Of a stretch of 32,275 nucleotides of DNA, positions 18,001-32,275 are shown piece by piece (the stretch's first letter is position 1; each line of letters begins with the position of its first letter). This DNA is from Salinivirgaceae bacterium (GTDB taxonomy: Bacteria; Bacteroidota; Bacteroidia; Bacteroidales; SZUA-534), in contig JAEINW010000033.1 in the NCBI GenBank assembly GCA_016342715.1, positions 1-32,275 of the forward strand. Direction: 5' to 3'. The notes under the pieces were generated by a model. The model did not search any database, had not been told where the DNA came from, and saw only the letters and a program-made list of their open reading frames with translations. The position numbers and the translations under genes were made by a program.

Positions 18001-19080
18001 ACTATTGCAAATAATAATAACGTTGAATTACAATGGGTAAATCCAACAGGAATTAGATTAGAAGAAGGATTTGAAGAAGAAACATGGCCACCGCTAAACT
18101 GGAATGTCAAATATAGTAAAACCATAGACGGTGAACTTGAAGAACCCAAAGAAGGCGAAGAGGCATGGTTCCATACCGATGAAAACTCTTATGGCTCACC
18201 TGCTCATCCTGAAATTATCCATAGTGGTTTGTATGCAGCTGGAATTGAATATTCGGCACCTGATTTTAACTGGCTAATTTCTCCTAATATAAATGTAAAA
18301 GACAACGAGGAATTGTCATTCTGGCTATATTATATAAACGGTGATTATCAGGGAACCTATTATTATACAAACTTTCATGTTCTTGTGAATAAAGACAATG
18401 CCTGGGAAGAAGTTCTGTTTTTAACTGATGGTGATGAAATAAATAATTACAATTCAGAACTAAAAGTTGACTTAAGCGCTTATGCCAACCAATCCATTCA
18501 AATTGCATTTGTGTATGAATTCAACAACAGTTATCAACTATTTCTTGATGATGTAAAAGTTGCTGCGAAACAAGATGAAACTAAATCATTCGAGAATAAC
18601 TTGTCGAAAGGTGATGGAACATTAAGCGGATACAAAGTTTACAGAAACGATGAATCAATAGCAGATATTTCGAATAAGTATCAGGTAAGTTTTACTGATG
18701 AAAATCTAGAAAACGGAGACTATACATATCATGTTGTTGCACTGTATTCAAATCCAGATGGATTATCAGAAGCATCAAATAATGTTACACTAACTGTAAA
18801 CCAAATTGGTATTATTGATAATACAGTGAATAATACAATTACTGTATATCCTAACCCAAATAATGGCCAATTTACAATACACACAGATGCTGAAATAACA
18901 GGAAATACAATTGTTAAAATATTTGATATTAGTGGAAAAATCATTTACACTAATACATTTACTTCCTTCAATAAGTGTTTTAACAATCAAATTAATCTGA
19001 ACGATTGTACTAAAGGAATTTATAATCTTCAAGTTATTAATGAAAATAATGTTTACTCTCAAAAATTAATAATAAAATAA
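12058..19080 (+). CDS. Giant T9SS-secreted adhesin-like protein with nine tandem ASH repeats
   Basis: This 2340-residue surface protein starts with a signal peptide (1-25, ending SFGQ). An N-terminal choice-of-anchor-J/cleaved-adhesin-like domain occupies ~27-180. Nine tandem ~101-residue ASH (choice-of-anchor D) repeats follow at ~181-1092, each with I-K-N-T-G, A-P-F-S and F-A/T-P cores. Then come a second anchor-J domain (~1092-1232), an FN3-like domain (~1236-1330), a third MAM/anchor-J domain (~1331-1488), a diverged tenth ASH domain (~1490-1590), a fourth anchor-J domain (~1595-1785), two Ig/cadherin-like domains beginning A-P-V-F-T-S (1788) and A-P-I-F-T-S (1882), a fifth anchor-J domain with a split FN3, and a type A T9SS sorting domain from ~2260 with VYPNP. 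No enzyme motif was seen, so the likely role is adhesion, matrix or a structural stalk. It ends at an intrinsic terminator. Confidence 0.88.
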   Translation: MRKVEFTKTWIFLLLALFASNISFGQLNEDFSAGIPANWEIRDIDGDGSFTAPASELFGRTEYAGGDNLGDDYLISPKVTVTASDKTLSFDHMTTDYDYDYNELQVYIVSTIPSDNNYSGETAIFDEYLGEYNWTTTTLDLNTYIGKDVYIVFHIKNDYGATNYGGIDNVNGPAIAVTNAPKIELTALVFSTIIEGASTTANLTIKNTGTAVLSISGFTVDAPFSTTVTTLSIVQGTQEDVEFTFAPTAAGDFTKELTVNIDGAFDGINKIELKASATAKKPKIELSVSAFSTITEGSSTKANLTIKNTGEADLSISGFTIDAPFSTTATTLTIAKGTQQDVEFTFAPTTVGDFTKDLTINIDGEFEGTNTIQFSAAAIEKKPAIELSIASFDNIDTGSSTKANLTIKNTGEADLKITGFTIDAPFSTTATTLTITKGTQQDIEFVFTPTVAGDFSKELTVTIDGNYDGDNTISLSGKASEPKVPTITLTAPVFDNVPPGSNTTKNLTIKNTGDGVLNITGIAIAAPFSTTATTLTIEPGSEESIALTFAPVVEGNFSETLTATINGDFNGDNEIQINGSSTKLKPTIELIVADFAPVVLGETSKANLEIKNTGDADLNITGFTIPAPFSSTATTLTLAKGTQQIIEIIFTPTIAGNFAETLTVNIDGDFTGVNEIQLQGTAAEPATPNITLIAPIYENVPPDLNATKNIIIKNTGDGVLNITGITIAAPFSCSVTTLSIAKNTQKEVEITFAPTTEGEFSETLTVAIDGDYSGDNEILINASSTKLKPTVELIVADFSSVVLGNTNTANLQIRNTGEANLNITGITVAAPFSTSAETLTIAPGNQQDIDITFTPITAGDFSEILTVNIDDQYEGDNTIILTATATEPPLPNIELTALEFDNLAPGSNTTKNFTIKNTGKGILNIIDFTLAAPFSTTANALIIDAGEQQDIEITYAPSSEGDFSEILTVNIDGDFEGSNKISISGISIEPKPTIEFSMGNFTPVLVGSNSVAVLSIKNTGDAELDITAINIANPFSCVATTLKIATGAQADVEISFAPTSNGIFNETLSLNINGNYNGENTINLTGITYIPDVLFEDFESSAFPPNGWTVKHNGSEYYGWRKGTIASSAYEGVSYSYAGPDGGSLASPQLNIKSGDELSFYVHNSSASNGTLSIKYSDDNNIWNNLEDITLTDSYEKITVDLSSITGEKYIGFFGENYVFIDNVSGPEMLTSGTPNPATNPTPIHQAQGLYNTIELSWDASLCADGYKLCLGTSENPVAILDHVNTGITTSYTVRALDFATNFKWKVIPYNNGVDAVNCPEWTFTTMADPTIKNFPYTQGFEEDEQNPGWIINNWYSGAEPYTGLLCARTLPIDTNAILMTAPIELPSNYCIHFYWKDDDISAPSKNAKISGHDSTFFEVSIDYGINWTVLRTLSPEIAMSEYQREIVDLSEYAEKTILLRWHYKSDGNVQKAYGTGVDAISIQARPLIPVPELNLTSWDAGVVDFGETINSENIFEIINVGVGTLNITSAILNNNEFTTSFVIDDVALAENETYKFAFNYEPSDAGVDNTTFTIVCSSGETFIINLTGKAHAENYTIWDIEEMDDFSVTPIPWRTINADNLPTWGWSDFDFPHEGDSLAFIVFNPGAINAEGFEPHSKNKFLASIAAKGNTTDPVSSNDWLISPQGLLGENPEFSFWAKSSTDQSGLLEKFNVAISTTGHNVDDFIIISGTTTPLEAPADKWTKYNFDLSQYKGENVYVAIQCVSFNNFIFMVDDLCLYDFTELNTAPVFTSEAIVTAHENKNYSYSISAIDDNFDAITFSAEELPSWLNLTDNNDGTALLAGIPLSANIGANTIKLIASDSKTTTEQLFTINVEEFANIAPIFTSDPVSTGRKGINYIYTITVSDEDNDDLTISSTATLPSWLTLTALGGNTETLSGTPTTTGDFDIELTLSDGFTTTNQSFTIIVGEPEFDKPLDLTATIANNNNVELQWVNPTGIRLEEGFEEETWPPLNWNVKYSKTIDGELEEPKEGEEAWFHTDENSYGSPAHPEIIHSGLYAAGIEYSAPDFNWLISPNINVKDNEELSFWLYYINGDYQGTYYYTNFHVLVNKDNAWEEVLFLTDGDEINNYNSELKVDLSAYANQSIQIAFVYEFNNSYQLFLDDVKVAAKQDETKSFENNLSKGDGTLSGYKVYRNDESIADISNKYQVSFTDENLENGDYTYHVVALYSNPDGLSEASNNVTLTVNQIGIIDNTVNNTITVYPNPNNGQFTIHTDAEITGNTIVKIFDISGKIIYTNTFTSFNKCFNNQINLNDCTKGIYNLQVINENNVYSQKLIIK
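12598..15333 (+). repeat. Nine tandem ASH-domain coding repeats with a two-repeat super-unit
   Basis: Repeat starts are at 12598, 12901, 13204, 13510, 13813, 14119, 14422, 14728 and 15031, giving lengths of 303, 303, 306, 303, 306, 303, 306, 303 and ~303 bp. Repeats 4, 6 and 8 share one subtype (V-P-P-G / A-P-G-S openings and N-T-T-K-N), and 5, 7 and 9 the other (V-V-L-G or V-L-V-G openings). Linkers alternate likewise: S-S-T-K-L-K-P-T after 4 and 6, and x-E-P-x-x-P-N after 5 and 7. The array therefore grew partly by copying a ~609-bp two-domain unit. Confidence 0.85.
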
Positions 19081-19284: not shown

Positions 19285-22200
19285 ATGATTAAACGAATAA
19301 CAATTATAATTTTTTATTTACTAATTACCTTCACCGTTTTTGCACAAAATAAAGTTCGTGTAAATTTATTATATTCAAAAAACAAATCAACAAATATTGA
19401 AGATATCCAATCAGACAAAAATGGAATAAAAATAAAAGAGAGCATTTCATATCTTGATTTTGCAGAGACAGAGACAAAGGAGGGAAAATACATACAATTC
19501 TCATCGCAAGGAATGACTGTAAGTTATAAAAAAGGAAAACCAAACTTGCCCTTAATTAGCAGACTGATAGAAATTCCATTGAACACCAAACCAATAATTA
19601 AAGTACTAAATTATGATGAAGAGTATATAAATTTAAAAGACTATAAATTAGGGAACGAAATTATACCGGCACAACCCTCACTTTCAAAAAGTGACAACCC
19701 TAACAAGGTGCCTTTTTATAAGAATTTAGAAATTTATTCAAAAAATGAATTTTTCAAAAACGAAATTATAACATTTGAAGACCGAGGCTATTTAAGGAAT
19801 AAACATTTAGGATATATTGAAATATCCCCATTTGAATACAACCCTGTAACAAACACAATAAAAGTGTTAAACAATATTGAAATTGATATTCATTTTGTAA
19901 ATGATAACAAGTCAAAATCAATAAATACAAAGAATTCAGCATCACCCTATTTTGATAATATCAAATTAAACACCATAAATAATAATAATAATAATAGTAC
20001 AAAAGCACTATTAAATGGTCCTATAAAATATGTAATTGTTTCCGATAGAATGTTTGAAGAAACATTACAAAAATTCGTAAACTGGAAAATATTGAAAGGC
20101 TTTAATGTTATTGAAGCTTATACCGACGATCCGGATGTTGGTAATACCACAAATTCAATACGTACCTATTTGCGAAATTTATATGATAATCCGAGCGATG
20201 ATATATCTCCTACATTTATCTTGTTTGTAGGTGACATTGAACAAGTACCTTCTTTTTCGGGAACAACAGGAAGTCATGTTACCGATCTTTATTATTGTGA
20301 ATATACCGATGATAAATTACCCGAAGTATTTTACGGACGATTCTCTGCAACAAACATTGAAGAGTTACAACCGCAAATTGATAAAACCCTTGAACTTGAA
20401 AAATATGAAATTCCCGATGCTGCCTATTTAAACAATGCTGTATTAATAGCAGGGCACGACACTTACGGAAACGATTTAATTGTTGGTAATGGCCTTGTTA
20501 ATTACGCAAGCAAAAATTACATTAACGAAAACAATGGAATAAATAGCTATTCATATCTATCGCCTGAATCTCAAAACTACGCTTCAGAAATACGGGATAA
20601 TATTAATAATGGAGTTTCAATAGCCAACTACACAGCACATTGTAGTTCTAGTGGCTGGGGCGATCCTTCGTTTACTACCAGTAATATACCTGCAATGACC
20701 AATGAACATATGTACCCCCTAATGATAGGTAATTGTTGTTTGTCGAATAAATTTGATGATAATGCCTGTTTTGGAGAATCACTTTTAAGAGCTAAAGATA
20801 AAGGTGCTGTGGGATATATTGGAGCATCAAACAGCAGTTTGTGGGATGAAGATTTCTATTGGGGCGTTGGATTGGCTGAAAAAACATCAAATCCAACATA
20901 CCAAAATAGCGATTTAGGTTTCTACGACCGCTTCTTTCACTTAAATGGAGAAGAAAAAAATGATTGGTACATAACCCAGGGTCAAATGATTACAGCTGGC
21001 AATCTGGCTGTGGAATCTTCAGCATCTGCCAATAAAGCATATTACTGGGAAATATATCATTTGATGGGCGATCCTTCCTTAACACCTTATGTTACAATAC
21101 CTCAAATATTAACTGCATCATATAATTCTGAAATTGTACTTGGTGCATCAAATTTTCAAATTACAACAGAAGAAAATTCCTATGTAGCGCTTTCATACAA
21201 AGGCCAAATTCTCGATACAAAACTAGTGGATGAATCTGGTATTGTCAATTTATCTTTCACCAGTTTAACAAATGCTGGTGTTCTTGATTTGGTTATAACA
21301 AAACAAAACAGACAAGTAATTATTGATCAAATTAAAATTAATCCATACATACCCTATATTGTTTTAGATGAATTTGAGATAGACGATAAACTAGAAAATG
21401 CAAATGGACAGGCTGATTACAATGAGTCGATAAGGCTAAATGTAAAACTTAAAAATATTTCAGATATCAGCAATGCATTCAATGTAATTGCAACACTTAC
21501 AAGTATCGATACAAATGTGATAATTACTGATAACACTGAAACTTATGGTACAATAAACAAATCAGAAAATATAAGCATCGAATCTGCATTTGGCGTTAAT
21601 GTAAAATCGAGTTTTAAAAATCAGCATACTGCTCAATTTAATTTAAACATTACAGGTACTGATGCCGAAGGCGTAAATTATAAATGGAACTCAAAGCTTA
21701 ATATAAAACTAAACGCCCCCCAACTTGAAATCAAGGAAATTTATGTAGGTAACAATTTCGAAGATAATAATTTTCTTGTTCCAGGGACAACTGATGATAT
21801 CAGCATTATAGTAACAAATATTGGCGATGCATTAATTTCTGATATCTCGATCATCGCAAATACCTTATCTAATAGTAGTGCATATTTAAATTTCAATAAT
21901 TCACAAATAGCCAATATTAATCTTGATACTCAACAAACCGATACTTTAAAATTTAACGTAACAATAGAGCCCACTGCACCTGTTGGAACATTAGTTTACT
22001 TAAATTTCAATCTAAATAACTATCCTGATAATTACTATTCGCAACAACAGAATAAAAAACTTATTATTGGTGAAATTCCCGAAATTCTTATTTCTCAACA
22101 AGGTATTATACAAACAAACTACGCATATTTTTATGATACTGGAGGGAAAAATAACAATTATACCAAAAATGAAGATTATACCATTACGTTTATACCGAAT

Positions 22201-23427
22201 GATATTAATAAAAAATTATTGGTTAATTTCTTTTCAATTGACATTGAATCAGGAACAGATGAATGCTACGACTATTTAGAAATATACAATGGAGAAAACA
22301 CAAATGCACCATTAATAGGTAGCTATTGCAATGCAAACAGACCAAAAACAATTAAAGCAAACAATGAAAACGGAGCATTAACATTTAAATTCTTCTCCGA
22401 TGTTTCTGTTAATCAAGCAGGATGGGAAGCCGAAATATTTTCTTTTGAGGGATTTAACTATCAACTTACTGTAAATGGTGTTGACGGACCACTAGCAGGT
22501 GCTGCAGTTAGTTTAAATGGAAAAACGATAACAACTGGCTCCGATGGAATTGCATTATTTGAAAATATAATTGAAGGTATTGATATTCCTTTATTAGTTA
22601 GTGCTGATGGATACAATGAGATTAGTACTGCTATTAATTTGCTGGAAAATACTACCCAAGAGATTAGCCTTACTAAAATACTATACAATTTAACGTTTAT
22701 AATTAAAGATAAATTTAGCCATATTCCTGTAGAAAATGCCGAGATAAAATTTATTGACCAAACTGTTTATAGTAACGAAAATGGCATATATATTTTTAAC
22801 AATTTAGAACCACGACTAAATGAAACTATTTTAGTAACAAAAGACGGGTTTGAAAACACAACAAATTCTATAAATATTAACAATAACAAAACCGTTATTA
22901 TTAATATTACACCCACAAGCTACAAAGTTACTTTTAATGTTTTTGATATAGATGAAACTCCACTTAAAGACGTAACTGTCACCTTTAATTTAATTAGTAC
23001 TAAAACAAATAGTGCAGGCATAGCAATATTTAATGATATTGTAGCTGCAAAAAAAATGCCGTACATCTTATCAAAATCGGGCTATAGCAACATTATTGAT
23101 ACTACTGATATTATAGATGAAAATGTAACAATAACAAAACAGATGGATCGGGTTTCAGGAATAATAAAGAATAAAGAACTTTTAATAAAAGTTTACCCTA
23201 ATCCTTCAAACGGTATATTCAATTTAAACATATCAAAACCCCAAAAGACTGATTATACTATTAAAATATATGACGTTTTAGGATCACTTATTTATTCGAA
23301 AATATTAAAAGGCGAGACCAAAATAATGGAACAAATTAATATTTCAGAAAATACAAAAGGAATATTTTTTTTAAAAATTGAATCCAACGAAGGCCTGCTT
23401 TTTAATGAAAAACTCTTTATTAAGTAG
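19285..23427 (+). CDS. T9SS-secreted gingipain-family cysteine peptidase (C25) with CUB and three CarboxypepD-reg-like domains
   Basis: A 1380-residue secreted protease. It has a signal peptide at 1-20 (ending FAQ), a propeptide-like region (~60-225) and a C25 caspase-like catalytic domain (~245-610). The catalytic His is His452 in NYTAHCSSSGWG and the nucleophile is probably Cys485, the second Cys of GNCCLSNKF, by comparison with ACVNGDF of gingipains. After Ig-like domains come a CUB-like domain (~935-1055, with DECYDYLEIYNG), three carboxypeptidase-regulatory/PEGA-like beta-sandwiches (~1058-1132, 1133-1210, 1211-1290) and a type A T9SS sorting domain with YPNP at 1304. Gingipain relatives cleave after Arg or Lys; specificity here is not readable. 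Six or so AAT units near 19977-19995 code for an Asn run before the catalytic domain, the likely activation junction. It has a terminator on each side and may be controlled by the upstream AraC-type TPR regulator. Confidence 0.9.
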   Translation: MIKRITIIIFYLLITFTVFAQNKVRVNLLYSKNKSTNIEDIQSDKNGIKIKESISYLDFAETETKEGKYIQFSSQGMTVSYKKGKPNLPLISRLIEIPLNTKPIIKVLNYDEEYINLKDYKLGNEIIPAQPSLSKSDNPNKVPFYKNLEIYSKNEFFKNEIITFEDRGYLRNKHLGYIEISPFEYNPVTNTIKVLNNIEIDIHFVNDNKSKSINTKNSASPYFDNIKLNTINNNNNNSTKALLNGPIKYVIVSDRMFEETLQKFVNWKILKGFNVIEAYTDDPDVGNTTNSIRTYLRNLYDNPSDDISPTFILFVGDIEQVPSFSGTTGSHVTDLYYCEYTDDKLPEVFYGRFSATNIEELQPQIDKTLELEKYEIPDAAYLNNAVLIAGHDTYGNDLIVGNGLVNYASKNYINENNGINSYSYLSPESQNYASEIRDNINNGVSIANYTAHCSSSGWGDPSFTTSNIPAMTNEHMYPLMIGNCCLSNKFDDNACFGESLLRAKDKGAVGYIGASNSSLWDEDFYWGVGLAEKTSNPTYQNSDLGFYDRFFHLNGEEKNDWYITQGQMITAGNLAVESSASANKAYYWEIYHLMGDPSLTPYVTIPQILTASYNSEIVLGASNFQITTEENSYVALSYKGQILDTKLVDESGIVNLSFTSLTNAGVLDLVITKQNRQVIIDQIKINPYIPYIVLDEFEIDDKLENANGQADYNESIRLNVKLKNISDISNAFNVIATLTSIDTNVIITDNTETYGTINKSENISIESAFGVNVKSSFKNQHTAQFNLNITGTDAEGVNYKWNSKLNIKLNAPQLEIKEIYVGNNFEDNNFLVPGTTDDISIIVTNIGDALISDISIIANTLSNSSAYLNFNNSQIANINLDTQQTDTLKFNVTIEPTAPVGTLVYLNFNLNNYPDNYYSQQQNKKLIIGEIPEILISQQGIIQTNYAYFYDTGGKNNNYTKNEDYTITFIPNDINKKLLVNFFSIDIESGTDECYDYLEIYNGENTNAPLIGSYCNANRPKTIKANNENGALTFKFFSDVSVNQAGWEAEIFSFEGFNYQLTVNGVDGPLAGAAVSLNGKTITTGSDGIALFENIIEGIDIPLLVSADGYNEISTAINLLENTTQEISLTKILYNLTFIIKDKFSHIPVENAEIKFIDQTVYSNENGIYIFNNLEPRLNETILVTKDGFENTTNSININNNKTVIINITPTSYKVTFNVFDIDETPLKDVTVTFNLISTKTNSAGIAIFNDIVAAKKMPYILSKSGYSNIIDTTDIIDENVTITKQMDRVSGIIKNKELLIKVYPNPSNGIFNLNISKPQKTDYTIKIYDVLGSLIYSKILKGETKIMEQINISENTKGIFFLKIESNEGLLFNEKLFIK

Positions 23428-23484: not shown

Positions 23485-23593
23485 TTATAAACCGCCAAGA
23501 CAAAAGCGGGAATTCTTTAGAATGAATGCCCCCGGTGCAAGTCATAATGCCATTAACTTAAGCACTTAAGATTTACCAGTTTTATAAAGAAAT

Positions 23594-23669
23594 ATACCGA
23601 CCTGAAGGTCAATCTCTGGCATTCGGAACAAAATATTAAATTAGCAGCTTAAAAATAAGAGCTCTGCTA
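23594..23669. repeat. Left copy of a >=76-bp perfect direct repeat
   Basis: This sequence is identical, in the same orientation, to 32200-32275, the last bases of the window. Bases before 23594 and 32200 do not match, so the left boundary is sharp. Inside are a dyad GACCT-GA-AGGTC (23599-23610) and a bulged hairpin, TTAGCAG-CTTA (23641-23651) against TAAG...CTGCTAA (up to 23670). It may be the end of an insertion element, a MITE-like unit or a palindromic repeat. Confidence 0.9.
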
Positions 23670-23760
23670 AAAACAATTACCAATAAATTAGAGCCATATC
23701 AATTTTAGTTATTCCTGTTTTGACCGAATAATCTTTCGAGCTTACCTTCGTAATCTATTC

Positions 23761-23983
23761 GTGGAAGGAAGTGTAATCAATTTATTGCGTAAGCTTGGAT
23801 TTAAAAGTTATAGCAATGGTGTGTTAAAAACTATAACAGACCAATTAAATACTCACATAAAGAAGGTTTCAGTACAAATTGGGATCCAAATACATCGCTG
23901 GAGTAATACAGAAAAAAAGAAATACAATTCAAGCTTGATTACGTAAAGGATGTTTACCGGAAAGAGATAAACAAAGTGCAGAA
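23761..23983 (+). pseudogene. Unidentified decayed coding remnant in two frames
   Basis: A 61-codon frame from GTG at 23761 (V/MEGSVINLLRKLGFKS...) ends at 23946. A second frame overlapping its end continues with K-L-D-Y-V-K-D-V-Y-R-K-E-I-N and runs on to a stop in the 24040s. Both peptides are amphipathic and lysine-rich and read as one interrupted protein. I do not recognise the family; a transposase or regulator fragment is possible. It directly follows the left direct-repeat copy, so it could belong to the same element. It may also be non-coding. Confidence 0.3.
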
Positions 23984-24069
23984 AACAGACAAGGTTATTT
24001 GTATAATAAAATCATTAAAGAATACACAACCCTTTATTATCAAAGGCAAATAAGACAGCAATAAACAAA

Positions 24070-24162
24070 ATGTCAAACAACCCTTCAAAAACTGAGCAAG
24101 CATTTTCAATGATTAATAATGCGATAAGCCTTATCTCTTCTGGATTGGGACTTGTTGCATAG
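24070..24162 (+). CDS. Possible 30-residue peptide or truncated 5' gene end
   Basis: ATG at 24070 opens a 30-codon frame, MSNNPSKTEQAFSMINNAIS then LISSGLGLVA, with a polar start and a hydrophobic C-terminal half. It may be the surviving N-terminus of a deleted gene. There is no supporting neighbour, and it may not be expressed. Confidence 0.2.
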   Translation: MSNNPSKTEQAFSMINNAISLISSGLGLVA

Positions 24163-24169
24163 AAAATAA

Positions 24170-24194
24170 AAAACGTGAATTTTATTTACGTTTT
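24170..24194 (-). terminator. Hairpin terminator downstream of the caspase gene
   Basis: AAAACGTGAA (24170-24179) pairs with TTTACGTTTT (24185-24194), one G-T wobble, loop of 5 nt, flanked by A and T runs. It lies about 105 bp past the minus-strand caspase stop codon and would end the module's transcript. Confidence 0.55.
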
Positions 24195-24299
24195 AAAAAA
24201 GTTAAACATAAAATCTTTTTCATTGATAGTTTAAATTTATTTGCGCCTACTCTTTATTACCCGTTTTCGGCACCCCGAGATTATTTTGTGTATTTTCAG

Positions 24300-25997
24300 T
24301 TACTTTAATTTCCAATCCATCCAATTTTCTCCCAGCTCAATTGAGTATAAGATGTTAGGAGTTTGTTCTTTACTGTTTACTTTTACACAGTTCAGATCCA
24401 CTTCTTTTTTCACATAATTGTACAAATCGTTGTATGAAATATCTCCATTGGTTTCCTGAATCTTTTTCAATAAATAATAGGTAAACATACCATGCTGCTT
24501 GTCTTTAAATGGCAATGAGGATTGCTCGCCCGATGAAGAAGTAAATACAACAATATTCCCGGTCAACAGATTCTGTTTGGGTTTCACTTTAACACCTCTT
24601 GAGGCAAGCAGACCTTGTCCTCTACTCCCTCCAGAAAAACAGGCATCCATAAATACTGTTATTTTTTTTGATGGATATTCGGTTAATTTGGTGTAAAGGG
24701 TGTGCAATTTAATGGCGCTTTGCAGGTTCGTTGCCGATACATCGACAGGAATAATGTACGGTTCATTCGTTTTTTCATCGGGTAACCCATGTCCGGCATA
24801 ATAAACCACCACCTCAGCTGAGCCTCCTTCTTTTTGGATGATTTTATTTATCCAGGCAATAGCCTGATACATTTGACCAGAAGTTGCATTGCTTAAAAAC
24901 TTTATATTGCTTTCCGGAATTCCAAAGGTATTTAGAATGTAATTTCTAAATATGTTGGCATCATTTACTGCATAAGCCACATTCACTTCACTGCTTAAAT
25001 CGGATTGATAACTGCTATAATCCTCATTCCCGATAATTAACGCATAAGCATGTGGGTTAATCGTTTTAGTAGTAGGAATATTTACGTCTATATCGACAAT
25101 AGTAGGATTAATATCCATATTATTATTTTTAGCTAAACAGATTAATGAACCTTCATTAGTATCTAAAAATTTATTGCGAAATGCATCCTGAATAATAATC
25201 TCAACTGAAATACGACGGTATTGAGCCCCACGCTCTTTTGCTACAATTGCAAAATGTTGATAGGTGTTCTGTGTAACTCGAAATTGTTCGACATACTTGT
25301 CAATAAAATCCCTGACACTATAAGTACGCAGAAATGCAAGTTGAGCATTATTTACTATGCCGGTTTCTTTTGTTATGCTCAATTCATCAAAGTAGCCGTT
25401 TAAAAAGTAGCCCGCATTAATAAAATCACCATATTCTCCCAAATAAGGGATTTTCGAAGTAATGGGTGTGCCATCAGTAGAGCCTGTAATCTTTATCGTT
25501 ACTTTGGTGCCTGAAGATAAATACTCGGACAACTGGTTTTCGACAGCTTTTTTGAGTAATTGCATGGTGATTTTGGCTGCGTTTGAAGCCAATAATTTGT
25601 ATTTGCCCATTGGAAAATCTTCGGTTTGATTTTCTATCAGAGCCTTTATCACTTCGTATTTATACTCTACATGTAAATTAAGTATTGAATTGCCTGTATT
25701 AGTGTCAGTTTCTTCTTTCACATTAGCAACAACCGATGTTTTAATGTTATCAGTAATTATTTTTTGTTCGCGTTGCTTTTTTGTATAAAGCTCCATGTCT
25801 ATTTTAAACAATGTATCTATTTTGGCAACTTCGTGTTCTATTTTTATCCGACGTGGTATAGTAATACGAGCAATGTTGCTCGCAATTATCTCGTAATTTT
25901 CACTTCGAACAGGAATACCAATAGACTGACTATTAACATTTACACAAATAATAATTACTATTAAAAAAATAATTGTCTTTAACCTCATGTGACACAT
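24300..25997 (-). CDS. Caspase-family (C14) protein with signal peptide and OmpA-like region
   Basis: A 565-residue exported protein. The N-terminus reads MCHMRLKTIIFLIVIIICVN; Met4 (25988) is an equally good or better start, giving a normal signal peptide. Residues ~150-272 resemble an OmpA-like peptidoglycan-binding domain: V-T-I-K-I-T-G-S-T-D-G (166-176), N-N-A-Q-L-A-F-L-R-T-Y-S-V and R-R-I-S-V-E-I (261-267), although the usual glycine spacing is altered. Residues ~313-540 are a caspase p20/p10-like domain with H-A-Y-A-L-I-I-G-N-E-D-Y, catalytic His403 in YYAGHG and Cys453 in DACFSGG, so it should be active. Bacterial C14 proteases cleave after basic residues as a rule. The location would be periplasmic, perhaps tied to the cell wall. 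It is the last gene of the minus-strand module and follows the barrel gene by 239 bp. Caspase assignment is strong, OmpA-like assignment moderate. Confidence 0.88.
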   Translation of the reverse strand: MCHMRLKTIIFLIVIIICVNVNSQSIGIPVRSENYEIIASNIARITIPRRIKIEHEVAKIDTLFKIDMELYTKKQREQKIITDNIKTSVVANVKEETDTNTGNSILNLHVEYKYEVIKALIENQTEDFPMGKYKLLASNAAKITMQLLKKAVENQLSEYLSSGTKVTIKITGSTDGTPITSKIPYLGEYGDFINAGYFLNGYFDELSITKETGIVNNAQLAFLRTYSVRDFIDKYVEQFRVTQNTYQHFAIVAKERGAQYRRISVEIIIQDAFRNKFLDTNEGSLICLAKNNNMDINPTIVDIDVNIPTTKTINPHAYALIIGNEDYSSYQSDLSSEVNVAYAVNDANIFRNYILNTFGIPESNIKFLSNATSGQMYQAIAWINKIIQKEGGSAEVVVYYAGHGLPDEKTNEPYIIPVDVSATNLQSAIKLHTLYTKLTEYPSKKITVFMDACFSGGSRGQGLLASRGVKVKPKQNLLTGNIVVFTSSSGEQSSLPFKDKQHGMFTYYLLKKIQETNGDISYNDLYNYVKKEVDLNCVKVNSKEQTPNILYSIELGENWMDWKLK

Positions 25998-26236
25998 ATC
26001 TCAATATAATAAATTAAAAAAAATGGAATAGATATAAACCTTATCGCAGTTTTATATCAGAACATTGAATATCACATTTATTGGATCATTTTGATAATTT
26101 AATTGGGTAGAACTCTACAATTAATTAGACCTCAAATATTATCAGTAATATATATAATAACATACTATCGATATCCAATTCTCTTTTGTAATAAAACATC
26201 CCTATACTCCTTGTCTTATTATTAAGCGATTTTTCA

Positions 26237-27328
26237 TCATTTTGCAGAGATGCAATAACCAATGCCAAATGAAACATTCAAAGGCAATCCCACTCCAATA
26301 TTAAAAACAAAATGACGAGCTTGACCGATGAAACCAATATCAGCACCAGAGTAATTATACATATCTTCATAATACCCAGAGTAGTCTGTGTAATATTTGA
26401 GATAACCACCATCGTAAACACCAAAAGCGAAATGAATATCAACACTTCCAGCATCAAAAAGATATGTCGACACCCCAATTCCATAATTATAGCCACCACC
26501 TAATCCAAGTTGTGCATGATAACCCCAATCATTCAACACTCCAATTTTCAAACCTAATACAACGCTGTTGTGTTGAATAATACCTCTGCAAAATGGCATT
26601 GCAAAATAACCTTTCCCATTTAAAGTGCTTGAAGTACAATATGTACTTACAGTTTTTATATCAGCACTTTGAATGGAGTATTTATCGTTAGTTTTTGATT
26701 GCAAGGTGATTTTATCATTCGGATAAATCTCTGTAATACTACCACATACAATATCCCCATTTTTTAATAAAACACTATCTTTACTAATTTTTTTGCTTCT
26801 AATCACTTTAATTTCAGCCGGTTTTAATGTAAGAGAATTGCCATCGGTTGCCAAAAATTTAAAATTGATTCGTGCAAAACGTTGATCCAGCTTTCCGTTA
26901 AGTTGGTTGCCATTATTAAATACTATTTTATCCCTGCTTTTATTTTGTTTTCCCCTTGCAATCTCTGTAATATCGGTTAATGTGTTGGTTGAAGCATATG
27001 GTTTGGTTGCCAAAACTTTTACATTTAGTTCTTCGCCCTGTAAATCAATACCATCGGCTCTCATATTCCATATAATACGTTTTTTTGTCCCCACAGTAAT
27101 ACTTTTACCAATGTCGCCACTTAACGTTATGGCTGTTATTATTTTATTGCTTGTTGTTTTAATATCAAGCCATACGTTATCCAAGGTACTTGAACCAGCA
27201 ACGTCATAAGTAATTATTAGGTTATCACCTTCTAATTGCAGTTGAGTATTTTCAATCTTACTCTCCTGAGCAAATCCTTTTGTGAAAAGCAAGCTTAAAA
27301 AAGCTACAAATACTAGAATCTTATACAT
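26237..27328 (-). CDS. Putative outer-membrane beta-barrel protein with N-terminal beta-sandwich
   Basis: A 363-residue exported protein with a signal peptide at 1-20 (ending FAQ). Residues ~25-108 form a beta-rich, Ig-like region with D-N-V-W-L-D-I-K and a K-K-R-I-I-W-N-M turn, a pattern met in Bacteroidota envelope proteins of unknown role. A middle part (~115-230) has two short K-N-G-D-I-V / N-N-G-N-Q-L-N-G strands. The C-terminal ~130 residues alternate aromatic and glycine residues (GYHAQLGLGGGYNYGIGVS and so on) as in small outer-membrane barrels. The start codon lies 20 bp from the ancestral stop of the decayed caspase fragment upstream, so this gene once directly followed a caspase gene; an intact caspase gene now follows it. 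Co-occurrence suggests an envelope complex. Exact function unknown. Confidence 0.65.
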   Translation of the reverse strand: MYKILVFVAFLSLLFTKGFAQESKIENTQLQLEGDNLIITYDVAGSSTLDNVWLDIKTTSNKIITAITLSGDIGKSITVGTKKRIIWNMRADGIDLQGEELNVKVLATKPYASTNTLTDITEIARGKQNKSRDKIVFNNGNQLNGKLDQRFARINFKFLATDGNSLTLKPAEIKVIRSKKISKDSVLLKNGDIVCGSITEIYPNDKITLQSKTNDKYSIQSADIKTVSTYCTSSTLNGKGYFAMPFCRGIIQHNSVVLGLKIGVLNDWGYHAQLGLGGGYNYGIGVSTYLFDAGSVDIHFAFGVYDGGYLKYYTDYSGYYEDMYNYSGADIGFIGQARHFVFNIGVGLPLNVSFGIGYCISAK

Positions 27329-27348
27329 ATTTATTTTTTTAGTTTTTT

Positions 27349-27455
27349 CTATTTTAATTTACATCCCATCCAATTTTCTCCTAACTTTTGAGAGTATAAA
27401 ACATTTGGTGGTTGTTCCTTATTGTTTACTATTACTCAGTTCATATTCACTTTTT
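27349..27455 (-). pseudogene. Decayed C-terminal remnant of a second caspase gene
   Basis: Read on the minus strand, the last 36 codons, ending with a preserved TAG at 27349-27351, align without gaps to the C-terminus of the intact caspase: 23 of 36 residues are identical, including K-E-Q-x-P-N-x-L-Y-S, L-G-E-N-W-M and K-L-K-stop. The codon matching Cys537 has become TGA, so the fragment is dead. The homology fades near 27460; a weak continuation toward ~27515 is possible. The catalytic part is gone, replaced by the FKBP-N-like gene fragment. This points to a former caspase copy on the other side of the barrel gene. Confidence 0.85.
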
Positions 27456-27480
27456 TATCTAGCAGGGCTATTAGGATATT

Positions 27481-28328
27481 TCATTTTCCGTTTTCTTGTG
27501 GATCCTGATTTGTCTTCAAATTATTTGGATCATGTAATCCCTCTATAAGTCCTTGTCTAACTAATTCGGTATTTATTTTTAATTTGGAATTATTATTCAA
27601 TCCAGATATTAGTTGGTTCTTTAACGAATTACCGAATGCAGTCCCTGAATAATATATTTGAAAATACCTACTCTCATTTACGTCCATACTAGCTCTAAAT
27701 CCTTCAATAAATGGAGCGATTTGTAGATTTGTAGAATCACCCTTAATATAATCTTCTTTTATAGTGGTACCTATATTCATACCATAAGGGTAATTAAGCA
27801 TTCTAATTCGGGTTGTGAATAGTTTTTTGATATATTTATTTTCCTTGTTATAAACTGTCTGGCTTTCTGGGGATTCATAAAATTAAACGATTTATTTAAT
27901 GCGTCAATAAAGCCAGTTTCTACCAATTTTTGATTGAAAGTAATTGTTGAATCTTCCATTACTCCTTTTGAGTTTTGTTTTATAATAAAATCCCCTACAG
28001 TAACGCCCTTTTTATACATTTTAGCTTGGTCTGTTTCCGAACCGATATCTAAACCTAATCTTAGCCAGTCCTCTTGAGCGAATACTTCATCAAATGCATA
28101 TATGAATGAATAAAATGATTTGTCGGTTGAATCGTTATTAAAGTAACATCTTCTTATACTATCACCATAAGATCCTTCAAAAGCAAAATTCAAACTATCA
28201 ATTTTGGTAACAAAATCAGATGTATTTATATGTTGAATTGCTGAATCATTTTGTAAATTAAAATCCTGGGCGTTAGTTTTGTTCCAGAATAGAAATAGTG
28301 AAAATATAATGGCAAATCCTAGCTTCAT
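27481..28328 (-). pseudogene. Frameshifted exported protein resembling repeated FKBP N-terminal domains
   Basis: The start is ATG at 28328, opening a clean signal peptide (MKLGFAIIFSLFLFWNKTNA); an upstream in-frame ATG at 28487 would overlap the regulator gene and bury this signal. The first frame runs to a stop at 27777. A second frame, overlapping it from ~27850, carries on to 27481, so one indel between ~27850 and 27777 splits the gene. Each half has an L-G-L-D-I-G / Y-G-M-N-I-G motif and a following L-V-x-x-G-x-I-x-x-L motif (ELVRQGLIEGL in the second), resembling the dimerisation domain before FKBP-type prolyl isomerases. No FKBP catalytic domain is present; the frame stops just before the caspase remnant. 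A working fused protein of about 280 residues is possible if the indel is an error. Domain assignment is moderate. Confidence 0.55.
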
Positions 28329-28434
28329 AATCAGGTTATTAATTGAAAAATTGATATTTAAGTAATAAAAATATCTATCATTATATTTTTTCGTTAATAT
28401 TTTCAATGCAATCATATATTTAAAAAGATGTTGC

Positions 28435-29223
28435 CTAAACCATATTATCATATCTCTCTTTAAACTTAGCCAACTTATTACGGGCAATTTGATATTTCAT
28501 TTTATCGAAAGGGGGAACCATGATGCAGTCGCGATTTTTATAATCGACAAAACTGAGGTAGTTCAAATTGATAATGGTGCCGGAGTTGATCATGAAAAAA
28601 TCGGGATTGTTGGTATGTCCCAAAAGAACTTGACCTTTTATCGTTCGACGCAAAATTACTTTTCTGTTGTCGTAAATAAATGCTGCCCAATAAGGTTTTA
28701 CTCCTACTTCATGAGCCATGTACTCAAATGCAACAATTTCATCTTTTTGAAAAAAGCAAACCCCATCGGCCGTGGGCAACGAAATTCGTTGTGTGCCTTT
28801 CTCTTGTATTTGGTTTATTTTGTTGCGAAAACTGCTTTTGTATTTCAGGTTCAAAAAACGGTTAATCATGTTACTCAAATCAGGTCGTTCAACTGGTTTC
28901 ATAATAAAATCGAAAGCAGCTTCGCGCAGGGCATCGATGGTGTATTTTTCGTAGCCTGTTTGAAACACCACATGGCAATCAAAATCGGAGTCGTCGCGCA
29001 AATTTCGCAAAACCTCAATTCCACTCTTTACAGGCATTTGAATGTCTAAAAATAGAATATCTGGTTTCATCTCTTTCGCCTTTTTTATTCCAACCAATGG
29101 ATCGGTTGTTGTAAAAAGGATATTGAGCTTAGGCTCGCGGAAAGTCACAATTTCGTTGCGAAGCATTTTTATTGCATTCTGTTCGTCGTCGATGATGGCT
29201 ACATTTATTTCCTGTATCGGCAT
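28435..29223 (-). CDS. LytTR-family response regulator
   Basis: A 262-residue cytoplasmic transcription factor. Residues ~5-125 are a receiver domain with acidic pair Asp12/Asp13, phospho-acceptor Asp60 in LFLDIQMP, Thr89 and Lys109 (IMKPVE). Residues ~150-260 form a LytTR DNA-binding domain with the features F-x-K-D-E-I-V-A-F-E-Y and F-F-M-I-N-S-G-T-I-I-N-L-N-Y. It follows the LytS-type kinase on the same strand after a 211-bp gap and is almost certainly its partner, by the usual pairing of the two families. Downstream on the same strand lie the FKBP-N-like, barrel and caspase genes. Known relatives control envelope and peptidase functions. Targets are not proven. An inverted pair TACAACAA / TTGTTGTA lies upstream. 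Confidence 0.93.
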   Translation of the reverse strand: MPIQEINVAIIDDEQNAIKMLRNEIVTFREPKLNILFTTTDPLVGIKKAKEMKPDILFLDIQMPVKSGIEVLRNLRDDSDFDCHVVFQTGYEKYTIDALREAAFDFIMKPVERPDLSNMINRFLNLKYKSSFRNKINQIQEKGTQRISLPTADGVCFFQKDEIVAFEYMAHEVGVKPYWAAFIYDNRKVILRRTIKGQVLLGHTNNPDFFMINSGTIINLNYLSFVDYKNRDCIMVPPFDKMKYQIARNKLAKFKERYDNMV

Positions 29224-29434
29224 ACTTTTAATTGTAAAATTCTACAACAAGGATAATTCACTTTCGCTAATTTTGGTTTATAGGATTATTAATTTGGGCG
29301 TTATTTGGTCGGGAATTGGGATTAAATTGTTGTAAACCCATTAAATATTATATTAAGTTTTATCCATGCCGATGTAAATTAACAAGGTTTAAGAAGCGAA
29401 GTGCACTTAAGGCGCATTTTTATTTACATTGAGT

Positions 29435-31912
29435 TTAGTTTAAAATGTAGTCGTATCGCATTGGGATTTTGATGATGACTTTTGTTCCCGAACCATCTTC
29501 GACATTTATATTTACTATTTCATAGGACATCTTGTTCGAATTGTTTTGATTCAAAATATGCATCGTATTGCTTAGTACTTTTAAACCTGTTCCTGTGCCT
29601 TTGGTTGTACAGGAGGTCTGCTGTAGTCCCAGTCCATTGTCAGAAATATGGAATTTCAGGAATCCCAACTCTGTTTTTATATCTATCAATAATAATCTAT
29701 TGTCTTTTTTTGGTGCAAGCCCATGCTTAATTGCATTTTCAACGGGTATTTGTAGCATCATGCCTGGTATATGTTGGGTAAGATCGATTCCATCTTCAAT
29801 ATTCCATAACACTTTTAATTCGTTGTTCATCTGTATTTTTTGAAGTTCGATAAAGCTTTTTACAAAGGCGATTTCGTCGCAAAGAGGAATGGCTAACTGT
29901 TCGGTATTGATAAGGCTTCGGCGTATGAGGTTGGTTAAATTATCGAATTGTACTTTTGCAGTTTCACGATCATCAATTATTGCCCAAATATTATTCAATA
30001 CATTAAAGGTGAAATGTGGAGAGAGCGCATTTCGTATGTTCTGCATTTTCAAAATGGTGATGTTTGAGAGTTGCTTTTGGTAAAGAACGGATCGACGTTT
30101 GCGGAGTAACAAAGTAATAAACGTTATTAATAGTATTGCCAATAGGAACAAGATAACAAGCATCACAATAATGAATTTTTGCTGTTTTGCTTCTATTTCC
30201 TTTTGACCAATTATTTCATGATCTAGTTTTTGCATATTCACCAGATTGTCAATTTCCAGCTGTTTTTTCTCAATATTCCATCGGGCTTCGGCAAAGATTA
30301 AGGCTTCTATTTTATTTTTATTAAGCAGGCTATCAGACAAAGCATTGTAGATCTCAAAATATTCGAGGGCTTCCTTATCTCGACCTTGCATTTGATAGAT
30401 TTTTTTCAATCCACCACTCACATCCCGCCTTACAGGTATTGTACCTATTCGTGTTGCTATTTTATAAGATCTAAGACCTGCTTGTTCTGCCTTTATCAAT
30501 AAATTATTTTTCTGATTTTCCAAAAATCCTTCCGCCTGTGTTACATATAAATTTGATAGATGCAGGTTTACTGTAGCTATGCCTTCCTCCTCTTTCATTT
30601 CGGTTTTTAATTGCAAGGCTTGAAACAGAAGTTTCTCCGATTGGTCATACTTCTTATTTAGTCGGTATTCATCCGCCAGATTAATGCATAAATTGGAAAT
30701 GCCATAAGTATAATCAATCTCTTTGTACGATTCCATTACTTTGTTGTAATAGAAAATGGCACTGTCATTTCTGTTTACAGCACTGTAAATACTAGCAATG
30801 CTATTGTAGTTGCTGCCAATTTGTATGATGTTTTTAATTTCTTGGTTTATTTTAAGCGATTTCTGAAAATATGATAACGATTTTAGATAATCTTTCCGAT
30901 GAAAATACAATTTTCCCAGTCCAAAAAAACCTTTTGCAAGACTAGCCTTATCGTTAATTTCCTCTTTTATTTTTAGGGATTTAAACAATAGGTCAGCTGC
31001 CGTATCATAGTCGCCCAATTGAATAAAAACATCGCCAATATTATTATAAGCTTTTGCCAGGTTCGATTTGTCGTCCATCTCAAGCGCATGTTCTATTGTG
31101 AGCTGGTAATATTCAATTGCTTTTCCAAAATCGGAGAAGCCATAGTAAGCGTTACCCAAATTCATGTAACAACGTAAAACTCCATTTTTATCATTGATTT
31201 TCTGAAACAAGGCAAGTGCATAGTTGTAATAGGCAAATACACTGTCGTTTTGGCTTTGGTTGGAGTAAAAAATGGCCAGATTCATGTAGCTACTGGCAAT
31301 AAGGGGTTCATTGTTGAGTTGTTTACAAATATTGAGGGCTTTGGTAAACCCGTCAATGGTTTTTTGATTTTGTCCTTGATAAAAATAAATCATCGCCCGA
31401 TTGGAGTATATTTTTGATTGAATCTCCAAATCACCGATTCCAATTGCCAGTTGCTCCGCTTTTTCATAACAGCGCAAAGCCTCATCGTAAGAGGCCAATT
31501 TAAAAAACGAGATACCTCTGACTATAAAAACTTTGGCTTGTGTCCTTTCATCCCCACACTCAAGGGCGTAAACCATTGCAATGGAATCATTTTTAAAAGC
31601 CTGATAATAGTTGCCAGTTTCCAAATAAACATGTGAAATTCCAACAAACGAATTGGCAAGCAGATGGTACTTGTCCTTTCTGTTCTCATAATCCTGAAGT
31701 AATGAAATAGTTTGGTTGTAGTAAATAAGAGCAGTATCAGGCTTGGAATTTCTAACACTGTCAGCTATTTCAATAAGTTTGGAAATATGATCAACCAAAA
31801 ATGATTTTTTGGAATTTTGTTCCGACCTTGACTTATGCCAAATTACAAAAGAGAAAAGTGTAGCGGCAACCACTGAAATTGCCATCACGACAACCATTTT
31901 TTTTCTGTTCAT
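29435..31912 (-). CDS. TPR-containing LytS-type sensor histidine kinase
   Basis: An 825-residue membrane kinase with an N-terminal anchor helix (6-24), a long TPR domain at ~55-525 with about ten 40-residue repeats, a coiled coil, a transmembrane helix at ~580-603 and a His_kinase/HATPase domain. The phospho-acceptor is His633 in ALSPHFTFNVLNN, the hallmark of the LytS/YehU class. The ATP site shows an N-box at VENAIKHG (724-731), DNGLGL (758-763) and GTGTGL (772-777). TPRs face the periplasm, so the input is probably a protein or peptide interaction. It is first in the minus-strand module, ahead of its LytTR partner. A promoter-like pair lies upstream at 31952-31977. The kinase looks complete. 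Confidence 0.93.
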   Translation of the reverse strand: MNRKKMVVVMAISVVAATLFSFVIWHKSRSEQNSKKSFLVDHISKLIEIADSVRNSKPDTALIYYNQTISLLQDYENRKDKYHLLANSFVGISHVYLETGNYYQAFKNDSIAMVYALECGDERTQAKVFIVRGISFFKLASYDEALRCYEKAEQLAIGIGDLEIQSKIYSNRAMIYFYQGQNQKTIDGFTKALNICKQLNNEPLIASSYMNLAIFYSNQSQNDSVFAYYNYALALFQKINDKNGVLRCYMNLGNAYYGFSDFGKAIEYYQLTIEHALEMDDKSNLAKAYNNIGDVFIQLGDYDTAADLLFKSLKIKEEINDKASLAKGFFGLGKLYFHRKDYLKSLSYFQKSLKINQEIKNIIQIGSNYNSIASIYSAVNRNDSAIFYYNKVMESYKEIDYTYGISNLCINLADEYRLNKKYDQSEKLLFQALQLKTEMKEEEGIATVNLHLSNLYVTQAEGFLENQKNNLLIKAEQAGLRSYKIATRIGTIPVRRDVSGGLKKIYQMQGRDKEALEYFEIYNALSDSLLNKNKIEALIFAEARWNIEKKQLEIDNLVNMQKLDHEIIGQKEIEAKQQKFIIVMLVILFLLAILLITFITLLLRKRRSVLYQKQLSNITILKMQNIRNALSPHFTFNVLNNIWAIIDDRETAKVQFDNLTNLIRRSLINTEQLAIPLCDEIAFVKSFIELQKIQMNNELKVLWNIEDGIDLTQHIPGMMLQIPVENAIKHGLAPKKDNRLLLIDIKTELGFLKFHISDNGLGLQQTSCTTKGTGTGLKVLSNTMHILNQNNSNKMSYEIVNINVEDGSGTKVIIKIPMRYDYILN

Positions 31913-31951
31913 CTGAGAAGTGAGAGTGTTACTAATAAATTAGAATATGAA

Positions 31952-31987
31952 CTAAAGTACATTCTTTTAAACCGCAATATACATTGC
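31952..31987 (-). promoter_or_regulatory. Candidate promoter and dyad of the TPR-LytS kinase gene
   Basis: On the minus strand TTG (31977-31975) and TACTTTAG (31959-31952, one mismatch to TAnnTTTG) are about 15 bp apart, a slightly short spacing. The -33 element is inside the dyad GCAAT-atac-ATTGC (31974-31987), a possible operator. It lies about 40 bp before the ATG at 31912. Confidence 0.35.
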
Positions 31988-32199
31988 AACATTTGTTTGC
32001 CCCCTATTAATCGAACTTTTTTATAGACGGTTAAACAAACATAATAATTCTTCACTATATTTACAAATGTAAGGAACAACCGATGGTGATTTTTATACCG
32101 ATAGTTCGTGATAAGGTATTTTTAGTTTATGTTTCATTTTTCGTTTCTCTAGATTTATTTCTGTTTTGATTAAATTTTTTTCCCAACAATCCCAAAATA

Positions 32200-32275
32200 A
32201 TACCGACCTGAAGGTCAATCTCTGGCATTCGGAACAAAATATTAAATTAGCAGCTTAAAAATAAGAGCTCTGCTA
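32200..32275. repeat. Right copy of the >=76-bp perfect direct repeat, cut by window end
   Basis: This is identical to 23594-23669 over all 76 available bases in the same orientation, and the repeat continues beyond the window to an unknown length. The sequence left of 32200 does not match that left of 23594. Together the copies bracket the kinase-regulator-caspase module. Confidence 0.9.

Follow-up and report, generated by a model that had tools for sequence, protein, structure and literature searches.

Transposases of the IS200/IS605 family (TnpA) are proteins of about 150 amino acids (aa), and Pfam lists the HUH Y1 transposase under the name Y1_Tnp. In the rolling-circle initiator Rep-Arvir, a catalytic tyrosine and acidic residues occur together with a MarR-like domain (PMC13107129). 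Here we analyze a stretch of 32,275 bases (the window) from a Salinivirgaceae bacterium, which is the entire contig C7 of a 5.54-Mb genome assembled into 358 contigs (completeness 98.4) and in which two identical direct repeats bracket a cluster of caspase and two-component genes. We conclude, with a probability of roughly 0.85, that each of these repeats is the 5' end of a copy of one insertion sequence (IS)-like element, the two copies being closely related and having inserted independently, that the first copy (copy 1) is internally deleted and coding-dead, and that the autonomous form of the element is about 1.73 kb long and carries one gene for a 549-aa protein.

The repeat had been described as recurring without mismatch and with a sharp left border, and both features were confirmed: positions 23594-23669 and 32200-32275 are identical over 76 nt on the same strand, and no further identical base is found to the left of either repeat. 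Given its length, chance is no realistic explanation for this identity. When the 76-bp unit was used to query the whole genome, five places were returned, namely C7 twice (100%), C355 (97%), C98 (93%) and C184 (93%). Longer queries around copy 1 (872 bp, then 620 bp) matched beyond the 76 bp and thereby place the repeat at the 5' end of a larger unit. Nine matches to the 620-bp query were found on six contigs (C7, C184, C98, C355, C201 and C85), corresponding to about eight copies or fragments if C7:32200 and C85 are counted as two halves of one; left ends are present in five of them. The match extends over 613 bp (86%) on C184, over the first 442 bp on C98 and over the first 219 bp on C355, and 3' parts alone were matched on C201 (two places), C355:16385 and C85. 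The 200-bp left flanks of the two window copies share merely a 9-bp chance match, which, together with the copies elsewhere in the genome, upholds the idea in the original prediction of a mobile unit inserted at two sites. At the start-codon position CTG is found in both C7 copies, ATG in C355 and C184, and ATA in C98; the C7 pair, which has CTG in common, is thus more alike than any other. DNA matches were obtained in 7 of the 60 genomes searched (own genome included), those in G003 and G008 being short and weak.

The element and its immediate target occupy the following positions in the window:

23545..23595, + strand: resident target, the end of a different dispersed repeat (90% to C12 and 88% to C68 over 51 bp, border at 23595)
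23596..24210, + strand: copy 1, a 615-bp internal-deletion derivative with a broken transposase-like frame (by sequence comparison with other copies)
23599..23610, + strand: left-end hairpin-forming sequence GACCT-GA-AGGTC (by covariation across subfamilies)
23692..23943, + strand: longest open stretch, at 84 aa, of the transposase-like frame, from its N-terminal part (in place of the CTG at 23664, C355 and C184 have ATG)
24170..24194, + strand: right-end palindrome with an 11-bp stem, alike in sequence among copies (z -1.24, energy not significant)
32202..32275, + strand: left end of copy 2, stopped by the contig end (C85 being the probable continuation)

Copy 1 is nested in another repeat, whose homologues of 23545-23595 on C12 and C68 continue with CAAAATCGG and without the element. 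Because these resident homologues go on without the element, and because AT precedes 14 of 15 distinct left ends, the AT with which the shared sequence opens is probably target DNA, the element proper starting at 23596. A proposed continuation of the resident repeat in the right flank of copy 1 was dropped, as it was based on about six bases. The target repeat family at C12:2412-2462 and C68:18003-18053 (L014 and L015) comprises 187 bp at 93% plus further pieces; it looks IS4-like by eye, but Pfam returned nothing at 0.001 for its 224-aa frame.

The right limit of copy 1 was set by the motif GTTAAAC-ATA, common to other copies. Compared with its 549-aa relative, copy 1 retains approximately residues 6-135 and 507-549, some 370 middle residues being gone, and no intact frame is left in it, the longest readable piece coding for 84 aa. 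The 3' joint of the internal deletion is common to copy 1 and C184, the latter having 39 bases that are absent from copy 1. A coding-dead derivative that moved would have received help in trans, an argument that concerns copy 1, the interior of copy 2 lying out of view. As to copy 2, the terminal 67 bp of C85 are identical to window positions 24147-24213, that is, to the last 64 bp of the delimited element and three bases beyond. Among the own-genome matches listed, only C7 and C85 end inside the element, so that most simply they flank one unassembled copy; judged from this sequence overlap, C85 is probably the continuation of copy 2, its other half lying beyond the end of C7. Contigs that start or stop in the element, with its match reaching to within 8 bases of the contig edge, were also found in G071 (C124, both ends), G004 (C173), G009 (C341) and G002 (C40), and contig breaks inside the element are the behavior of a multicopy sequence.

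At the protein level, seven of 295 genomes searched in the order gave matches (own genome included), and one of the seven, the Bacteroidales metagenome-assembled genome (MAG) G071, has an open frame of 555 codons. The intact G071 element measures 1,727 bp and has a single gene, encoding the 549-aa protein, which is identical (100%) in the uncultured Bacteroidales MAG RB_MAG_00005; the left and right end sequences of this intact element are the same as those of the own-genome copies. It has only one open reading frame of 100 aa or more, hence no TnpB-like gene. More remote relatives, at 21-29%, are known from Bacteroidota, Burkholderiales and Actinomycetota. They were found in 5 of 296 genomes of the phylum, own included, and in 12 plasmid records at 22-26% identity (six from Rhodococcus, two from Paraburkholderia, and the others from Caballeronia, Mycobacterium, Mycolicibacterium and Candidatus Mycobacterium methanotrophicum). 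Scans of viral contigs yielded one contig with a relative (L075 = L097), and at 1e-5 the phage collection contained nothing that matched the member from G481. On the plasmids of Burkholderiales and Rhodococcus a gene-bearing block of 1.7-1.9 kb recurs between different direct flanks, and in two Mycobacterium plasmids only the first 1.3 kb of the block does so. Two other frames were noted beside family members: one on the same strand at 3230-4485 of L064 (a Mycobacterium riyadhense plasmid), a divergent relative by eye, and one at 1845-2153 of L053 (G108:C72), beside a truncated member and by eye like the C-terminal part of a group II intron protein.

Public annotations label the family proteins 'hypothetical protein' or 'ArsR family transcriptional regulator'. 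In an alignment of eight members 29 columns are invariant, among them Y168, Y170, D173, N196, G197, E276, K345, Y347, K349, R355, E357 and N361, and none is a histidine; the alignment includes a conserved motif K-x-Y-x-K ... L-R-x-E-T. Compared with Pfam (E up to 0.1), NCBIfam and PHROGs, the eight matched families of winged-helix, MarR or ArsR type, with weak hits scattered elsewhere. The strongest outside the winged helix were a sub-cut-off match to Bromo_TP_like (E 0.00065), close to the N-terminus of the 549-aa protein, and a match of one member to the unnamed phrog_9887 (E 0.00056). A profile search of the PDB returned mainly winged-helix regulators at the C-terminus, the remainder being at chance level. 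In the titles and opening lines of abstracts covered by our literature search nothing was recognizable as this element family, subscription papers and ISfinder being outside that scope; we therefore call the family unnamed in the sense that it is absent from the domain libraries and the literature searched.

A short stem at the left end recurs across the subfamilies with different sequences. The block of 1.7-1.8 kb common to the Burkholderiales pair L067/L156 begins CTAAC GAGGC TCC GCCTC, and that of Rhodococcus L065/L158 (1.86 kb) has CTACC GGGGC TGC GCCCC 7 nt from its start; the first 1.3 kb common to the Mycobacterium pair L064/L157 holds CCAGT or CTAAT, then GAGGC and GCCTC. Overall, plasmid blocks begin 5-12 nt ahead of the stem. 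The G481 end reads TTAAC CTGGC GAA GCCAG, and about 40 bp of it recur alone on another contig (88%). The ends of G551 (CTAAC GCGGC GTA GCCGC) and of Paraburkholderia OLGA172 (CTAAG CCGGA CGA GCCGG) come from single copies; they were positioned because the sequence following the stem (AACCAAA) resembles that of G481, and not by two-copy comparison.

For the covariation alignment we assembled 16 ends, 15 of them distinct, leaving out those with a 20-21-mer equal to a chosen row (win2, C355, C184, L046, L141, L156 and L158) as well as G004:C12, which has one stem mismatch and CA instead of TA in the matching place. TA occupies columns 2-3 in 15 of the 16 rows, and the 5-bp stem begins 2 nt after it. 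Of 75 cells, 94.7% are paired (56.1% in shuffles); the covariation score is 0.937 versus 0.270, and two-sided cells number 29 versus 10.6, none of 500 shuffles being as high for any of these three measures. When the stem was slid by one base, pairing fell to 41-47%, at most 46.7%. All five stem pairs have changed on both sides, and GC, CG, AT and TA all occur at one position. Across eight representative loci, 0.2-0.5% of positions hold a perfect stem of such geometry, and 3.5-5.2% hold one with 4 or 5 of 5 pairs. The test was post hoc, the rows having been found by looking for such ends, and its shuffles ignore relatedness. Even so, four pair types at one position, in a place fixed by block borders in several subfamilies, are hard to obtain otherwise.

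Within Bacteroidales, 15 distinct left ends from seven genomes match ACCGACCTRAAGGTCAA with up to 4 changes; they remained from 23 rows after four repeat listings and four rows judged chance had been dropped. One of the latter, G004:C12 (L038, about 1935-2190), is preceded by AT and followed after 193 bp, on the same strand, by a palindrome resembling a right end, and this motif pair may be a very short, decayed derivative of the element. Right ends consist of a palindrome like ACGTGAATTTTATTTACGTTT, which recurs among the Bacteroidales copies, followed 7 nt on by a motif like GTTAAAACATA; the four that were folded gave z values of -1.24, -0.77, -1.16 and -0.04. Five elements, with copy 1 counted as far as 24205, showed no terminal inverted repeats, their score being reached by 179-385 of 500 shuffles. 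By eye, no target duplication was obvious in six pairs of left and right flanks, which are compatible with a 2-bp duplication.

On this anatomy, and mainly on that of the left ends, a single-strand mechanism appears most likely. The 549-aa protein would be a transposase that recognizes the left-end hairpin in single-stranded DNA, cuts beside AT in Bacteroidales or beside a CTA-like sequence in the other groups, and may move deletion derivatives in trans. We regard the elements as a candidate new IS family. A bolder and distinctly tentative proposal is that they form an unrecognized class of single-strand transposons in Bacteroidota, Burkholderiales and Actinomycetota, whose hairpin-recognizing transposase would use a catalytic tyrosine of other than HUH Y1/Y2 type and might be a nuclease remotely related to Rep_trans, joined to a winged helix.

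Several observations weigh against the interpretation of the repeats as ends of such an element. No transposase fold or catalytic domain was recognized, and outside the C-terminal winged helix nothing convincing was found in Pfam, NCBIfam, PHROG or PDB; AlphaFold models had a mean pLDDT (predicted local distance difference test score) of 35.3 for the 549-aa protein (3 rows) and 36.1 for a 313-aa core fragment (2 rows), values at which neither model was usable. Two of the five covariation measures are not above shuffles, namely pairs with two-sided change (139/500) and further pair types (210/500), and 4 of the 16 rows break one pair (L080, L153, L113 and L066). The left ends of Rhodococcus L159 and L161 were not recovered, the common stretch starting at L065 1551 and 1587. 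Covariation concerns left ends only, right-end palindromes being alike in sequence; the nine ends that were folded show no unusual stability, with z from +0.38 to -1.24, and the lowest-energy structure predicted for the left end in the window differs from the GACCT/AGGTC hairpin. We found no empty site matching both sides of a complete copy, and plasmid searches with two Burkholderiales left flanks gave none. Finally, the link between C7 and C85 is based on 67 bp, and the lengths shared with copy 1 (76 and 67) are unequal, where a plain fixed-k assembly break would give equal ones.

The alternative that survives best, though we think it improbable, is that the 549-aa gene encodes the replication initiator of a small rolling-circle replicon, or is a passenger, and that the copies are integrated relics with no transposon involved. 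The C-terminal winged helix would suit such an initiator, and the conserved K-x-Y-x-K ... R-x-E is reminiscent of rolling-circle initiators such as Rep-Arvir, in which a catalytic domain is likewise joined to a MarR-like winged helix-turn-helix (PMC13107129). The gene, on the other hand, lies in sharply bounded blocks of 1.7-1.9 kb, which occupy various plasmid locations, and in dispersed copies on MAG contigs, and PF02486 (Rep_trans) matched none of 148 genomes of the phylum, own included, while a Bacillus subtilis control was positive; it was likewise absent from the Pfam scan of the eight members. The phage B5 replication protein, considered for comparison with Rep_trans, turned out to be Rep_1 and was dropped.

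Still less probable is an assembly artefact alone, with a chimeric contig end and a copy 2 that does not exist. The concern that the contig end might have produced the repeat, raised in the original prediction, applies to the right copy: 32275 is the end of C7, so that the right limit of copy 2 is that of the assembly, and it is this stop that speaks for an artefact. Against it, the genome offers a second right flank (on C85) beside the second left flank (at the end of C7), as two real copies would give, and the copy 2 junction has the family-wide AT-ACC border.

The genes between the two copies fit their earlier description as a caspase, a decayed caspase, a response regulator and a tetratricopeptide-repeat (TPR) kinase. 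All lie outside the element:

24300..25997, - strand: caspase (Peptidase_C14 match), 565 aa, with AGHG and DACF
26237..27328, - strand: uncharacterized 363-aa gene (earlier called a "barrel gene"), no convincing Pfam match
27352..27516, - strand: decayed caspase 3' end (49% identity, 2 stops; DNA repeat)
27481..28487, - strand: two overlapping, mutually similar frames (25-26%), FKBP_N match in the downstream one only
28435..29223, - strand: response regulator (sub-cut-off LytTR match)
29435..31912, - strand: TPR sensor histidine kinase (domain matches)

AGHG and DACF are what we take to be the dyad motifs of the caspase. The overlapping frames are possibly tandem duplicates or the result of a frameshift, and the decayed duplicate of the caspase 3' end (24280-24407) beyond the 363-aa gene (27352-27516) points to a duplication followed by loss. 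A gap of 89 bp separates copy 1 from the caspase 3' end, and the start of the kinase gene is 289 bp away from copy 2, which lies upstream of it. Of 60 genomes (own included), 26 have such caspase domains. In tblastn searches with six window genes against the caspase loci of G002, G007, G005 and G042 (14-18 kb each, 4 of the 25 relatives with a caspase match) and against C202 of the own genome (6 kb), only the caspase was matched at 1e-4. The response regulator has only distant paralogues in 40 relatives, the best outside its own gene at 33% among the matches listed. PADLOC, run on four genes of the segment and one other, returned a caspase model, a TPR model and a weak response-regulator match (PDC-M60B, E 0.00073), from which no defense system is called.

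The least probable reading of all, a composite transposon or island in which both copies jointly mobilize the 8.6-kb segment, is favored by the equal orientation of the copies, their identical known ends and their closeness to each other relative to other copies, and is disfavored by the scatter of element copies over the genome, the caspase loci of four relatives and of C202 without the neighboring genes, the coding-dead state of copy 1 and the second repeat at its flank, which marks a repeat-rich spot. The suggestion that the repeats bound a mobile module is thus not supported, with nine matches on six contigs and none of the other module genes in the five caspase loci examined; the repeats probably flank the caspase genes by coincidence and define no island. 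Deletion or amplification of the segment by recombination between the C7 copies is possible, in the generic sense in which it is for any such pair.

Two large genes on the other side of copy 1 were also noted. Positions 12058-19080 encode a protein of 2340 aa that has a type IX sorting tail and contains nine tandem immunoglobulin-like/ASH-type repeats of about 101 aa, the DNA copies of which are 62-72% alike to the reference copy; directly before the element, 19285-23427 encode a 1380-aa gingipain-type C25 peptidase with propeptide, CUB domain and type IX sorting tail.

If the element is what we propose, a transposon family has been overlooked by the domain libraries searched, and another kind of enzyme would be able to handle hairpin-marked single-stranded ends. 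The left-end rule (TA, two bases, 5-bp stem) would provide a direct means to find further copies and to test the mechanism. For the caspase cluster, a mobile-island interpretation is not required.

Among known systems, classical DDE insertion sequences differ from the element, which has no terminal inverted repeats and no recognized DDE transposase. REP/TnpAREP and REPIN resemble it, according to PMC6006769, in having dispersed, non-coding hairpin sequences that are associated with an enzyme of single-strand type, but the enzyme here is not TnpA-like by our scans and the copy number is low (about 8). With Rep-Arvir and Rep_trans the family shares a winged helix and a conserved tyrosine followed by a glutamate (PMC13107129); it differs in lacking a PF02486 match and a convincing PDB chain outside the winged helix, and its gene resides in a dispersed 1.7-kb element and in no known replicon. 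From IS200/IS605 the element is set apart by a protein of about 500-555 aa, compared with the 152 given for TnpA in a table of PMC6006769, by the absence of a HUH Y1 transposase domain from the eight members scanned, and by having no invariant histidine and no TnpB-like gene. The subterminal left hairpin beside a short target sequence, typical of IS200/IS605, is nevertheless recovered here by conservation and covariation, its energy not being unusual. The likeness extends, by the description of the family in PMC6006769, to the absence of terminal inverted repeats, the placement of a short left-end hairpin just after a short target-like sequence, and the presence of short non-coding derivatives.

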